Shown piece by piece: positions 19,761 through 25,531 of a stretch of DNA of 39,511 bases. The notes under the pieces were generated by a model that saw nothing but the letters and a program-made list of their open reading frames with translations, was not told the DNA's origin and did not search any database. Each line of letters opens with the position of its first letter. The stretch's first letter is position 1. A program made the translations under genes and the position numbers. The stretch is from Candidatus Aerophobota bacterium (GTDB lineage Bacteria > Aerophobota > Aerophobia > Aerophobales > B47-G16), in contig QMPZ01000003.1 of the NCBI GenBank assembly GCA_003648815.1, forward strand, positions 1-39,511, written 5' to 3'.

Positions 19761-20816
19761 TTAGTCCCGAGAGTTTTCCTTGTGAGTTTTGGAAGGAAGA
19801 GGGGAGACCATTGATCTTTGCATAAGCATTCCCATCTTAATGCGAGCCATTGCAGTGAGCTTGGGATCAGTATCCAAATTGGAGACCATCTGGTATTCGG
19901 AGATTGCTTCCTTTACCCTTCCCTGGACCTCGTAACAACTTCCCAGCAAAAAATGAGAGGCAGCGCTGTTAGGATCTATCTTCAGCGCCTCCTTAGCGTC
20001 GGAGATTGCCCTGTCTAACTTTCCCCTCTGATAATAAATCATTCCCCTTTGATTGTAAAAATCTATCTTTTTAGGAGATAGATTTTTGGCCTCCTCAAAA
20101 TAACGGCTCGCCTCCTCCAACACTCCTTTCTCCTCATAAAGAACCCCTAACATAAGATAAATGGAATACTCCTCAGGGTTGAGCTTGAGGGCTTTTTTGT
20201 AAACCGCGATGGCCTCATCTACTCTTCCCTCCTCGTAGAGCCGGCTACCCTTCTCCTGAAGGAGGATGACCGGCTCAGGCTGTGGGAGGAACCTGGTCAA
20301 GACAACGTAAGCGCAAAGAAGAGCTGCAATCCCTACCCCTCCCCTTATAAGCCATTTTTTTACCACACTTAACTTTTCCTCTTTAATTAAATCATCCAGG
20401 TACCACCACCAATGAGAGGCAGGGATCTTTCTTTCCTCTCGATAAGGGGCAAGCTCGACAGAAGCTTTGAGGTGTTTGAGTATTATCTTTGCCTTTTTTC
20501 TCGCTATGGGATCGAGGTTCTCCAGTTTTGTCCTCTCTGCGGAGACATTCGTTCCCCTCTCCTCTAAGCTATGCAAAAGCTCCTCAATTTCATCCCTTAA
20601 GGTGAGCATCTTCAGGACATCTTTGCCAAGCTGCTCTACATTGGATAAGTATTTCTTGTACTCCTCGAGCATTTCTCTTAAATCGCTTAAGGTTGCTTTC
20701 TTGGGACCCATAGAAGTTCTCCCTTCAAACACGACAAACGGAAACCATCCAACGGAGAGCAAAGTAGGCAAGAAAACGACACTTGAGGGGGGATGTTTCC
20801 CCCCTTTATTAAACAA
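19761..20816 (-). CDS. Membrane-anchored tetratricopeptide repeat protein
   Basis: N-terminal coiled region, TM segment GVGIAALLCAYVVLTRFL, then TPR units (LYEEGRVDEAIAVYKKALKLNPEEYSIYLMLGVLYEEKG...). Likely start at Met36 (20711). Confidence 0.85.
   Translation of the reverse strand: MFNKGGKHPPSSVVFLPTLLSVGWFPFVVFEGRTSMGPKKATLSDLREMLEEYKKYLSNVEQLGKDVLKMLTLRDEIEELLHSLEERGTNVSAERTKLENLDPIARKKAKIILKHLKASVELAPYREERKIPASHWWWYLDDLIKEEKLSVVKKWLIRGGVGIAALLCAYVVLTRFLPQPEPVILLQEKGSRLYEEGRVDEAIAVYKKALKLNPEEYSIYLMLGVLYEEKGVLEEASRYFEEAKNLSPKKIDFYNQRGMIYYQRGKLDRAISDAKEALKIDPNSAASHFLLGSCYEVQGRVKEAISEYQMVSNLDTDPKLTAMARIKMGMLMQRSMVSPLPSKTHKENSRD
20057..20087. repeat. Inverted repeat, 12-bp perfect arms and 7-nt loop, within the TPR gene
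   Basis: AAAAATCTATCT-TTTTAGG-AGATAGATTTTT. Confidence 0.9.
20787..20804. repeat. GC hairpin (GGGGGGA-TGTT-TCCCCCC) upstream of the TPR gene
   Basis: 7-bp perfect arms with 4-nt loop in the likely leader of the TPR gene. Confidence 0.8.
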
Positions 20817-20915: not shown

Positions 20916-21377
20916 TTAATTCTGGCTAAGGATTTTCCGGGATAGTCTCTGACCAAAAGCCCTGGCCTCTGACAAATTCCTGATTCTTCGAAAGTCGATG
21001 ATTATGGAACCCTGTTTTTCCAGCAAGGCCATCAGCCTCTTTATGGCCTTGCTCACCCCGAGCATCTTGGGGATGACGAAGACGGCCACCTTTTTCCCCT
21101 CCAATCCACTGCATTCCCTTATGAAGGAGGCAATTTCCTCGGAAAATTTCCCACCCCACAGTCCCATCACCGGGCTTCCCACATAGACCAGGTCATAAGA
21201 AAAAAGACTCTTTATGCCAACTCCTCTAACTGCCCTTATCTGTTGTACCTGATGCCCTGCCTCCTTACTGCTTGAGGAGATAGCTTCCACAATTGCCTCC
21301 ATCTTTCTTGATTTTGGGGGATAAACTATAGCTACCCTCAATTTACTCTCCTCTATGTTTAAATAACCTGCGTTCAC
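20916..21377 (-). CDS. Flavodoxin-like protein
   Basis: 153 aa; YDLVYVGSPVMGLWGGKFSEEIASFIRE...GKKVAVFVIPKMLG; GTGA overlap with the upstream activase-type ORF. Confidence 0.75.
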   Translation of the reverse strand: MNAGYLNIEESKLRVAIVYPPKSRKMEAIVEAISSSSKEAGHQVQQIRAVRGVGIKSLFSYDLVYVGSPVMGLWGGKFSEEIASFIRECSGLEGKKVAVFVIPKMLGVSKAIKRLMALLEKQGSIIIDFRRIRNLSEARAFGQRLSRKILSQN

Positions 21378-24300
21378 AGGATGGCTTTTCGCTTACTTTT
21401 ATGATAACTTTTCACCCGGGCGATGAAGGTTCTCACCTTGTTCAAATAGTTTGCCTGATGGGAGTCATCGTAGGAAAGGCTAAGGATAGGAAAACCTGGA
21501 TAGTCCTTCTCTATCTGTGTCATCGCGGCGACGGTTATATTACCCGGCATACAGGTAAACGGCATCACGTTAACTACCCCATCCCTTCCCCTCTTTATGG
21601 AATGCAAGGTCTTTCCCACCGTCAGGATGGCCTCTCCCCTTAGGGAACGATGTAGGTATTTTTCGCCCAGCTCAAGGACTTCCCTTATTTCAGGTTCCTC
21701 ATATCCCTTTACTATTTCCTCGAAAGGAAGGACAAGCTTTTCTTCTATCATCTTCTGGAATAGATTTCTTGCCCGATTCTTAACGAACTCCAAAAAGTTC
21801 CTTTCCTTCAAACTCACATCCCTGTGCATCTCATTCGTATACATAAACCACTCTCGCATCGAAGCCAGCTCCACTTTCAGCCCATATCTTTCCAGCTCCT
21901 CTATGATGAAGTTGTTGGCAAATGGATTGTGTCTTACGTATATTTCTCCCACTACGGTAACTACGGGCCTGTCCTCTTTCTTTCTCCTTATCTTCTTAAA
22001 GGCGCCCGCAGCCTCCTTCATAACAGTAGCCACTCCTCTTCCCTCCCTTACAGCTCTGCAGACCTCATCCCGGTATTTTAAATACACCCTATCCGTCTCT
22101 CCTTTGTTTAGCTCGTCAGGTCTTATCAATCTCTGAACCTTACGCAGTATATCTATAGCCACGATGCCCTCCCAGGCTAATTTGGTAAACCTTACCCCCA
22201 GACCTCCGTAGCTGTTTTCGGAATCTAAGGAGACGACGGGGATGTCCTCATGACCAATTCTTCTTAAAATTTGTTTCTGGAAAGCACAATACTGGCCAAA
22301 TCTGCAGGGCCCCTGTGCTGTTCCCATAAAAAAGGCGCATCTTTTAGGATCAAAGTGGTCGTTATTTATCACCTTAAGGATATCCCCTGTGGTCAGGATA
22401 CAGGGATAACATTCTCTTCCCGTGGTATATTTTCGCGCCTCTCGCACGCTTCTTTCATCACTCACCTCCATAACCTCGGCTCTTTTTCCCAAAGCTTCAA
22501 GTGCTGCCTTCAGGGCATAGGAGTGATCGTCCATATAGGGAATGTAAATTGTTCTCTCATCCTCGGGCAGGTTCGCCCTGGACAGGACAGATCGGGCCAT
22601 TGGGGGTCTTCTTGTCAGAGCCTCCCTGTTCTTAACGCTGTCCAAAAAAGCCTCTAAGCGGGTGATGACCCCTGCCTCAGCGCTATGTTCGTCAATTTGT
22701 AGTTCAAGGTAAGGCCTGTCCATCTCCTCATTGAAGTACTTGCTGATAAAAGAATCCGGCCCACAGGCGAAGTTGGTAAGGTAGATGGGATAAAGGTTTT
22801 TTGTCTGTCTTATCCTTCGGGCAGCAGCTAAGATCTTCTGTCCTTGATACCAGTACAGATTAGGATAGTCATCGGAGATCAAGGAGAAGTCCAGATCCAG
22901 AAAGTCTAAAGGTATTGGCAGCATTCCTAACTCCCTCATCTTCCTGGCCAGATCAAGGTTAAGTCCCGGATCACATCCATTATAAGGCCGGGATACTATC
23001 ACAAAACCCCTCTTTCCGTTTAACTTTTCCAAGACCTCCTTACCTTTCTGTTTTAACTTCTCATAAAACCGATATTGCGCCTTTTTCGCTTCCTCAGCAG
23101 CTTTTTTGACCTTAAGTGGGTCCTCTCCTAATTCTTTGCCTATCTGAATTAAGGCCTTCTTCAATCCTTCCCTTAAGGATAGCTTTGGCTCAAGTATCTT
23201 TGTATGGGGATATTTTTTTCTATCTATGCTTGAGTTGACAAAATAAGGTAGGGCCTGAGACCAGGCACAGTTATAGGTTCTTCTCAAGATTTCTTCCTTC
23301 TTCTCGAAGTCGATCAGGCTGGGCAGGAATATATAATCCACCTTCTTCTCAAGCAGGTTCAGGACATGACCGTGGGCAACCTTCATGGGGAAACACAGCT
23401 CAGCGGTTACGGCTTCCACCCCTTGATGAATGATGGTATCGTTGGTTCTATCTGAAAGTACCACCTCATAGCCAAGTTCGGAGAAAAAGGCATTCCATAA
23501 GGGAAAAAGCTCAAAGTTGTAAAGGGCACGAGGTATGCCAATTTTCTTTCCATTTGATTTTTCCCCTTTTCTTGTTCCGGAAAAAAGAAGCCTTTCCCTC
23601 TCCTTGAAAAAGTCGGGAAGTCCCTCTATCCTCTTCCTTCCTTCCTTGCCGCTGTACCTTTCGCATCTGTCTCCGTAGGTCAGAGGCTTTTCCTCCCCTT
23701 CGATCCATACCTGATTGACCTTGCAATGGTTTGAACAACCATTGCACACAAAGGAGGTCATTCGATAGTTTACCTCACTTAAGCCAAATCCCTTAAACTT
23801 GCTCTCGCCAACCGTCTCCTCCATAGCTACGATAGCTGCTCCAATTGCCCCCAGGACCTCGTTATGGGGAGGAACGATTACCTTCCTTCCCAAGATCTTT
23901 TCAAAGGCAGCTACCACCGCCCTATTGCAGGCTGTGCCTCCCTGGAAAAATATGTTATCGCCGATTTTCCTATTTTCCACCACCTTGTTCAGGTAGTTAT
24001 AGGCCACCGAATAAGCCAGACCGGCCACAAGATCAGGAACCGGGACTCCCCTCTGTAGATGCTCGACCAACGCCGATTCCATGAAAACAGTACATCTGTC
24101 TCCCAGGTCGGCTGGGCTGTCGCTGGAGAAGGCTATCTCCTCGAACTGCTTTTTGATGTTTATCCCCAAGCTTTCTGCCTGTTCCTCTAAGAAAGAGCCT
24201 GTGCCGGCAGCGCAGACCTTGTTCATGGTAAAGTCAACTATCGCCCCGTCCTTCAAGCTAATAAACTTGGAGTCCTGACCTCCAATCTCAAAGATGGTAT

Positions 24301-25531
24301 CCACGTTCGGGTCTATATTTAAGGCTCCCTTAGCCTGAGCGGTGATCTCGTTTTTAATCACATCCGCTCCTATGAAAGCCCCTATCATATATCTTCCCGA
24401 TCCGGTGGTTGCTGCTCCTCGGATCCTGACCTTCCCCTCTACTTTTCTCCTCACCTCTCTCAGTCCGTCCTGAACAGCCTTAATGGGTTTGCCCGCCGTG
24501 GGAAGGTAGCTTTTGGCGATGAGTCGCTTACGGCTATCTATCACTGCCACATTGGTACTCACCGAGCCTATATCTATGCCCAGGTAAGCATCTATCAACT
24601 TACCATCCGCAGGAAACTTGTATTCCTCTTCCTCACGAGGAGGCTTTTCATCCTCGTAATCTAAGGAGAGTTTCGGAAGACTTGCTCGGCTGCGTCTCAC
24701 GGAAAAACTCTTGTTTAAGTTAGTCAGATCGAACCTTTCGACCTTCTTTTCCTCCAGTAAGGATAGAGCCGCGCCCAGAGCTCCTAAGGAGTAAAAATGT
24801 TCGGGAACGATTATGTTTTCCTTTCTCAAGACCTTCTTAAAGGCCACAAGCATGGCCTTATTTGCCGCAACTCCTCCTTGAAAGGATATGGGCTCGACAA
24901 AATCCTTGCCACGGGCGATGTTGCTCTTGTAACTTCTTGCCAGCGCCTCACACAATCCCATAGTTATATCCCTCATGGGAGTGGCTTTTTGTTGCAGGTG
25001 AATCATATCGCTCTTAGCAAATACAGCACATCTTCCGGCAATACGAGCAGGATTGGTGGACTTCAAGGCCTCCTCAGCAAACTCTCCTTCTATGTCCAAC
25101 TCCAATCTCTTCGCCTGCTGATCCAGGAAGGAACCGGTGCCCGAAGCACAACTTGAGTTCATGCCAAAGTCTATTACCTCCCCCTTCTCGTTAAGAGCGA
25201 TGAACTTGGCGTCGCATCCTCCAATATCTATTACCGTCCTCACCTCAGGATGAAGATGATGAATCCCCTTAGCGTGAGCTATCACCTCTTCAAAATAAGG
25301 CACCTTCCACTCCCTGCTGAGATGCTCTCCATTGGATCCGGTAACGGCTACGTATCCGAGAGGATATTTTTCAACTATTCTCCTTAGCACTTGGCGTGCT
25401 TTTTCCAAGGGCTGGCCATTGTGTCGGGTATACTTTTCCTCGTAAACGAGCCTTCCCTCCCCATCTATAACTACAGCGTTCACGCTTATTGACCCAAGAT
25501 CCAAACCCGCTATAAAGCTACTATCTTTCAT
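21374..25531 (-). CDS. Fused acyl-CoA dehydratase activase-related protein (two BadF/BadG/HgdC-type ATPase modules plus HgdB-like/DUF2229 region)
   Basis: 1385 aa; two ASKHA modules (GLDLGSISVNAVVID...SSCASGTGSFLDQQ...GRCAVFAKSDM and GIDIGSVSTNVAVID...KVCAAGTGSFLEEQ...DRCTVFMESAL), then Cys-rich FVCNGCSNHCKVNQVWIEGEEKPLTYGDRC, FACGPDSFISKYF, GRECYPCILTTGD, GPCRFGQYC. Confidence 0.92.
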   Translation of the reverse strand: MKDSSFIAGLDLGSISVNAVVIDGEGRLVYEEKYTRHNGQPLEKARQVLRRIVEKYPLGYVAVTGSNGEHLSREWKVPYFEEVIAHAKGIHHLHPEVRTVIDIGGCDAKFIALNEKGEVIDFGMNSSCASGTGSFLDQQAKRLELDIEGEFAEEALKSTNPARIAGRCAVFAKSDMIHLQQKATPMRDITMGLCEALARSYKSNIARGKDFVEPISFQGGVAANKAMLVAFKKVLRKENIIVPEHFYSLGALGAALSLLEEKKVERFDLTNLNKSFSVRRSRASLPKLSLDYEDEKPPREEEEYKFPADGKLIDAYLGIDIGSVSTNVAVIDSRKRLIAKSYLPTAGKPIKAVQDGLREVRRKVEGKVRIRGAATTGSGRYMIGAFIGADVIKNEITAQAKGALNIDPNVDTIFEIGGQDSKFISLKDGAIVDFTMNKVCAAGTGSFLEEQAESLGINIKKQFEEIAFSSDSPADLGDRCTVFMESALVEHLQRGVPVPDLVAGLAYSVAYNYLNKVVENRKIGDNIFFQGGTACNRAVVAAFEKILGRKVIVPPHNEVLGAIGAAIVAMEETVGESKFKGFGLSEVNYRMTSFVCNGCSNHCKVNQVWIEGEEKPLTYGDRCERYSGKEGRKRIEGLPDFFKERERLLFSGTRKGEKSNGKKIGIPRALYNFELFPLWNAFFSELGYEVVLSDRTNDTIIHQGVEAVTAELCFPMKVAHGHVLNLLEKKVDYIFLPSLIDFEKKEEILRRTYNCAWSQALPYFVNSSIDRKKYPHTKILEPKLSLREGLKKALIQIGKELGEDPLKVKKAAEEAKKAQYRFYEKLKQKGKEVLEKLNGKRGFVIVSRPYNGCDPGLNLDLARKMRELGMLPIPLDFLDLDFSLISDDYPNLYWYQGQKILAAARRIRQTKNLYPIYLTNFACGPDSFISKYFNEEMDRPYLELQIDEHSAEAGVITRLEAFLDSVKNREALTRRPPMARSVLSRANLPEDERTIYIPYMDDHSYALKAALEALGKRAEVMEVSDERSVREARKYTTGRECYPCILTTGDILKVINNDHFDPKRCAFFMGTAQGPCRFGQYCAFQKQILRRIGHEDIPVVSLDSENSYGGLGVRFTKLAWEGIVAIDILRKVQRLIRPDELNKGETDRVYLKYRDEVCRAVREGRGVATVMKEAAGAFKKIRRKKEDRPVVTVVGEIYVRHNPFANNFIIEELERYGLKVELASMREWFMYTNEMHRDVSLKERNFLEFVKNRARNLFQKMIEEKLVLPFEEIVKGYEEPEIREVLELGEKYLHRSLRGEAILTVGKTLHSIKRGRDGVVNVMPFTCMPGNITVAAMTQIEKDYPGFPILSLSYDDSHQANYLNKVRTFIARVKSYHKSKRKAIL

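Follow-up and report, generated by a model that had tools for sequence, protein, structure and literature searches.

The window, by which we mean the whole stretch of DNA analysed (39,511 nucleotides; contig C3 of a 1.8 Mb Candidatus Aerophobetes genome), contains an open reading frame for a 1385-aa protein at 21374-25531 on the minus strand, followed by a flavodoxin-like frame and a TPR gene. The gene mraZ and a cell-wall/division cluster lie upstream of the 1385-aa gene in divergent orientation. Of the outside matches of the 1385-aa protein, the ten closest all came from Candidatus Aerophobetes MAGs. For residue-level comparisons, we used 70 full-length homologues with 26-78% identity to the 1385-aa protein, from Aerophobota and from elsewhere in bacteria. 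The locus comprises the following features.

21374..25531, minus strand: 1385-aa fusion of activase A, activase B, a four-Cys site and two HGD-D-like modules (ORF; PF01869 twice, PF09989; 70 full-length homologues aligned)
24737..25516, minus strand: activase module A, residues 6-265, Cys128/Cys168 invariant; ATP motifs intact in 52/70 homologues
25499-25501 and 25211-25213, minus strand: ATP-site Asp residues 11 and 107 of module A (homologue alignment)
23816..24595, minus strand: activase module B, residues 313-572, Cys440/Cys480 invariant; ATP motifs intact in 70/70 homologues
23657..23752, minus strand: CX2CX3CX19C site, Cys596/599/603/623, 97-99% conserved; likely a [4Fe-4S] or metal site
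22577..23611, minus strand: first HGD-D-like module, DUF2229 and the following part, residues 641-985, triad Cys713/755/923 (hhalign, Foldseek)
21377..22576, minus strand: second HGD-D-like module, residues 986-1385, triad Cys1041/1076/1327 (hhalign, Foldseek, split forms)
21348..21353, minus strand: GAGGAG, resembling a ribosome-binding site, 6 nt before the TTG start (sequence; start position common to orthologues)
20916..21341, minus strand: flavodoxin-fold protein of 141 aa when read from the TTG, its likely start (AlphaFold2, Foldseek, profile match, orthologues)
19761..20816, minus strand: TPR protein (Pfam TPR) whose likely start is an ATG near 20711; one membrane helix is likely, judged by eye

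An earlier note on this DNA had described two HgdC-type ATPase modules in one chain, and both are present as ASKHA ATPase domains: PF01869 matched two stretches of the protein (265.5 bits against a cut-off of 31.5, E 7.7e-79), and TIGR00241 scored 327.5 bits against a cut-off of 125.4 (E 5.1e-98). By sequence, the PDB relatives of this half are HadI (4eht), MbdQ/MbdP of 3-methylbenzoyl-CoA reductase (9gai), HgdC (1hux) and DCCP-R (7yyl), and the cluster Cys residues are in register when the modules are aligned to HadI and MbdQ. C128, C168, C440 and C480 were invariant in all 70 homologues, at spacings of 37-56 for the first pair and 38-41 for the second, which bears out the claim that each module keeps both expected cluster ligands. 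Given these four residues, it is well supported by sequence that modules A and B form an intramolecular pseudo-dimer around one predicted cluster, as had been proposed. The ATP motifs are incomplete in module A of 18 of the 70 homologues, whereas those of module B are intact throughout. Based on this difference in ATP-site conservation, a pseudo-heterodimer like BcrA/BcrD is a better comparison than the HgdC homodimer. We also observed that at least one of the two ATP-site Asp residues (11 and 107) was lost from module A in 17/70 homologues, in which the cluster Cys were kept; one ATP site, that of module A, may therefore be dead in some lineages.

In the C-terminal half, Pfam recognises DUF2229 only (PF09989, residues 663-877), and the Pfam HGD-D family, PF06050, had no match in the 1385-aa protein, which by its sequence belongs to a sister group (DUF2229, PF09989) of PF06050 HGD-D. 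Comparison of residues 641-985 with residues 986-1385 by hhalign (98.1%, E 1.4e-13) paired the Cys triads of the two modules as C713-C1041, C755-C1076 and C923-C1327. Similarly, hhalign matched each module to the C-terminal domain of an HGD-D alignment, the first at 90.8% (E 1.2e-6) and the second at 85.7% (E 5.5e-6), with the third Cys aligned in both. Under relaxed confidence limits, the first Cys of the first module also aligns with an invariant HGD-D Cys, a match that is no more than suggestive. An AlphaFold2 model of residues 573-1385, built on the 70 homologues, reached a pLDDT of 89.1 and a pTM of 0.88. Its Foldseek matches 1-15 in the PDB were all DCCP, BzdNO, MbdON and HadBC (probability 1.00, E 3.6e-6 to 4.1e-3), with the next match at a probability of 0.23. 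With an rmsd of 8-15 A and a TM by target of 0.39-0.50, the superpositions are too loose to establish how the two modules are arranged, although the family to which the fold belongs is clear. A profile search of PDB sequences with the C-terminal half gave only a sub-threshold match to BzdN (E 1.6), which the profile-profile and fold comparisons resolve. In some other genomes, the second module is a stand-alone gene of 405-422 aa, either adjacent or on another contig, and this supports a boundary near residue 986. DUF2229 and the C-terminal domain are therefore tandem copies of the HGD-D fold, that is, of the fold of BCR, 2-hydroxyacyl-CoA dehydratase and DCCP subunits. The stand-alone activase of the earlier note is accordingly not supported, as the C-terminal half of the protein consists of two HGD-D-like reductase modules, each with an invariant Cys triad.

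All six triad residues (C713, C755, C923 and C1041, C1076, C1327) were invariant in 70/70 homologues. The spacing in the second module, 35 + 251, resembles that of the BzdO site, in which Cys95/128/380 (33 + 252) hold the [4Fe-4S]-OH2 active-site cluster (PMC11971306). Between the two halves, C596-C599-C603-C623 is 97-99% conserved; a CX2CX3CX19C site occurs on a stand-alone activase too (locus L030). By contrast, C1044 (41%), C1082 (7%), C853 (40%), C106, C535, C1065 and C1158 are not conserved. The C-terminal Cys motifs listed before as possible cluster sites thus hold in part. CNGCSNHC is kept at 97-99%, and C923 of FACGPDS and C1327 of FTCMPG are invariant; GRECYPC retains C1041 but not C1044, and GPCRFGQYC retains C1076 but not C1082. 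To that list we add the invariant C713 (AELCFP) and C755 (YNCAWSQ), and C623 as a candidate fourth ligand for CNGCSNHC. Since three Cys are invariant in each module, we expect two single clusters on three Cys each rather than a double cubane, and Cys conservation predicts one [4Fe-4S]-type site in each HGD-D-like module.

As listed, the flavodoxin-like frame spans 20916-21377 and encodes 153 aa from a GTG at 21377, which overlaps the stop of the large gene (GTGA). This overlap, on which translational coupling had been proposed, is probably wrong, as it hinges on choosing that GTG. A TTG at 21341 is preceded by GAGGAG at 21353-21348 and corresponds to the position at which the orthologues start; where measured, these begin 2-36 nt downstream of the large gene with no overlap. 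Based on the sequence, the overlap probably reflects a mis-called start, and the TTG is likelier. We reject a dedicated flavodoxin by translational coupling as stated, since the overlapping GTG is probably unused and the orthologues have no overlap.

The encoded protein adopts a flavodoxin fold in its AlphaFold2 model (pLDDT 88.9), with Foldseek matches to flavodoxins at E 5.5e-8 and TM 0.72-0.81 and a profile match to 6fsg (7.5e-6), but it scored below every NCBIfam flavodoxin cut-off. The FMN phosphate loop, (T/S)x(T/S)Gx(T/S), was kept in 0/12 orthologues, in which the aligned stretch reads, for example, PKSRKM, SQSKKF or GEGGRI. Of the 14 Aerophobota loci whose 3' flank could be assessed, 12 have the gene directly after the large gene, on the same strand. 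Genes upstream of the large gene vary between Aerophobota genera while this linkage is kept, and general synteny alone thus does not explain it. In the two exceptions, the flavodoxin-like gene is missing next to the large gene, with only a weak homologue elsewhere in the genome (L007/G014), or the genome has no homologue of the protein at all (L013/G015). Outside Aerophobota, we found no recurring neighbours of the large gene in 60 loci with flanks of up to 6 kb. The flavodoxin-like protein has few relatives in a searched set of 389 genomes, and the four that score best among those outside the phylum adjoin other genes.

That this neighbour is a dedicated electron donor of the 1385-aa protein is therefore a tentative reading, to which we give somewhat less than even odds. 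Its fold and its close same-strand position in 12/14 loci with differing upstream genes argue for it; the absence of the FMN loop from all 12 orthologues, its absence or near absence from two Aerophobota genomes and the unrelated genes beside its relatives outside the phylum argue against it. The partnership put forward in the earlier note, for which conservation of the neighbourhood was the suggested check, thus stands as a linkage within Aerophobota and has no counterpart among the sampled homologues outside the phylum. The flavodoxin-fold protein may instead be a structural or regulatory partner. Two of its relatives, in two other bacteria (L162, 4968-5405, and L163, 4983-5471), directly follow an apparent ribosomal protein L11 methyltransferase gene, and their phosphate loops are likewise non-canonical. 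The genome of the window contains a second, weak relative (G000:C147:1186-1407, E 7.7e-6), as does genome G016.

The TPR gene, whose product carries a WWWYLD motif, follows the flavodoxin-like gene in the window and at six other loci (L005, L006, L008, L014, L024 and L026), and the same pair of genes occurs at L160. At L007, where the flavodoxin-like gene is missing, the TPR gene comes directly after the large gene; at L013 it is missing too. The large gene, the flavodoxin-like gene and the TPR gene are thus a trio conserved in most Aerophobota.

The 1385-aa protein was found in 16 of the 17 Aerophobota genomes searched, one of the 16 (G006) having only an activase-type match of 45% identity. 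Among 389 bacterial genomes of at least 90% completeness, 123 had a match at E <= 1e-60 and 104 (about 27%) at E < 1e-100, the threshold by which we counted the fused family. Fifty-eight of these 104 genomes have no PF06050 protein, which argues that no separate partner is needed. The best-scoring PF06050 proteins (L120-L149) have up to eight conserved Cys, in the first of them at positions 76, 95, 114, 129, 144, 309, 343 and 376, whereas a double cubane has six. DUF2229 also matched in the control genomes of Thermus composti, Deinobacterium chartae, Thermotoga maritima and Lactococcus lactis. The first two of these species are aerobes, and the family may therefore extend beyond anaerobic low-potential metabolism. 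Thermus composti had a DUF2229 match but none to PF01869, which suggests DUF2229 without an ATPase partner there.

Several known systems resemble the protein in part. Class I BCRs (BcrCBAD; BzdNOPQ; MbdONPQ) likewise combine two non-identical ATPase parts with two HGD-D-fold parts, but as four separate subunits rather than one chain. Further, the six-Cys [8Fe-9S] cluster of BzdN (Cys36/73/100/263/293/327; PMC11971306) is unmatched in the 1385-aa protein, its CX2CX3CX19C site lies outside the described BCR component set, and its locus has no aromatic pathway genes. HadBC/HgdAB with HadI/HgdC share an HgdC-type activase with a [4Fe-4S] between two modules and two single-cluster HGD-D-fold partners, as predicted for the 1385-aa protein. 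There, however, the activator is a separate homodimer and the dehydratase a heterodimer with a known substrate, and the likeness to HadBC/HgdAB does not imply dehydratase chemistry. DCCP with DCCP-R, an ATP-driven reductase pair, provides the closest Foldseek matches; DCCP is a separate homodimer with a six-Cys double cubane, a site that the 1385-aa protein does not have.

By its name, rather than by sequence comparison, we take SMU_0438c to belong to the same family as the 1385-aa protein. It is called '(R)-2-hydroxyglutaryl-CoA dehydratase activator-related protein' (PMC6952196). The literature searched yielded no functional information on COG3580/COG3581, Rex or SMU_438c and no biochemistry of the DUF2229 fusion family, and DUF2229 was named in a single study, on Ruminococcus MAGs (PMC11362221). 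That study describes a fusion of two YjiL-type ATPase domains with DUF2229, an HGD-D superfamily domain (PMC11362221). By description rather than by sequence comparison, Ruminococcus encodes the second HGD-D-like module in a gene of its own next to the fusion, whereas the 1385-aa protein has it in the same chain (PMC11362221). Since the split form has been described, the architecture is not new, and the view that the wider family is a recognised one still applies; what we add is a residue-level map, a conservation test and the Aerophobota trio.

It is quite improbable that the protein is a true stand-alone activase, in which the ATPase half reduces a separately encoded enzyme and the C-terminal half serves for docking only. 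Known activators are the closest relatives of the ATPase half, and 46 of the 104 fusion genomes have PF06050 proteins; the association is weak, with an odds ratio of 1.87 (p 0.011) in statistics that ignore kinship. However, the C-terminal half itself consists of two HGD-D-fold modules, each with an invariant Cys triad; PF06050 proteins are missing from the host genome and from 57 other carriers; and no adjoining partner gene is conserved outside Aerophobota. A role as activator of a separate PF06050 enzyme was rejected, as the host genome has none and the association across the 389 genomes is weak. The earlier remark that no dehydratase genes are nearby is thus correct for the flanks, and even for the whole genome as far as PF06050 is concerned, but it overlooks the dehydratase/reductase-type subunits fused into the chain. 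A role as reductant for glycyl-radical enzymes, with anaerobic ribonucleotide reductase (PF13597) as proxy, was likewise rejected because the association is too weak: PF13597 was found in 55/104 carriers against 107/285 non-carriers (odds ratio 1.87, p 0.0076, again ignoring kinship).

Two other readings concern the chemistry of the C-terminal half. DCCP heads its Foldseek list (7yyl, 6eno), which would fit an enzyme with a double cubane ([8Fe-9S]), as in DCCP or BzdN, but such a cluster requires six Cys per subunit and each module has three invariant ones, with C853 at 40% and C1044 at 41%; on these counts we reject a double cubane as highly unlikely. An acyl-CoA (benzoyl-CoA-type) reductase or dehydratase, as put forward for the Ruminococcus split form (PMC11362221), is also unlikely. 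Its appeal is that the component set is that of BcrCBAD and the fold that of BzdNO and HadBC; yet the gene stands alone in diverse bacteria, with no conserved acyl-CoA pathway neighbours. In addition, the DUF2229 carriers include Lactococcus lactis and Thermotoga maritima, in which aromatic degradation is unexpected.

We conclude, with a probability of roughly three in four, that one polypeptide, the 1385-aa protein, forms a complete two-component ATP-dependent Fe-S reductase of the BCR/HAD/DCCP type. Both the ATPase pair and the HGD-D-like pair are in the chain, which makes it look like a whole BCR/HAD-type system rather than a lone activase, and ATP-driven low-potential electron transfer is the best hypothesis for its activity. 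The module identities, the tandem duplication, the Cys conservation, the fold family and the gene linkage are results of the computation, whereas the cluster types, the electron path, the ATP coupling, the donor and the reductase activity are what we infer, as follows. A low-potential donor, either a ferredoxin or a flavodoxin and in Aerophobota possibly the adjoining flavodoxin-fold protein, would feed electrons in, perhaps via the CX2CX3CX19C site. They would then pass to one [4Fe-4S] cluster between modules A and B, with Cys128, 168, 440 and 480 as ligands, from which ATP binding and hydrolysis would push single electrons onto the paired C-terminal HGD-D-like modules. Each of these would hold one site-differentiated [4Fe-4S] cluster on three Cys (713/755/923 and 1041/1076/1327), where substrate would be reduced at a potential beyond that of ordinary donors. 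More speculatively, and with considerable doubt, this widespread ATP-driven reductase, a single chain in which four cluster sites are predicted, might act on a non-CoA substrate, such as a small molecule or the metal centre of another protein. It might then be a housekeeping super-reductase of many bacteria, with the flavin-free flavodoxin-fold protein and the membrane TPR protein as accessory subunits in Aerophobota.

About one-quarter of the sampled bacterial genomes carry the fused protein, and more than half of the carriers lack separate HGD-D partners, which known activases require. As the predicted electron pump and acceptor pair are in one chain, the system can be tested as a single purified protein, for which the invariant Cys residues provide a concrete list for mutagenesis. 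The fused protein would thus offer a simple model of ATP-driven electron transfer outside nitrogenase.
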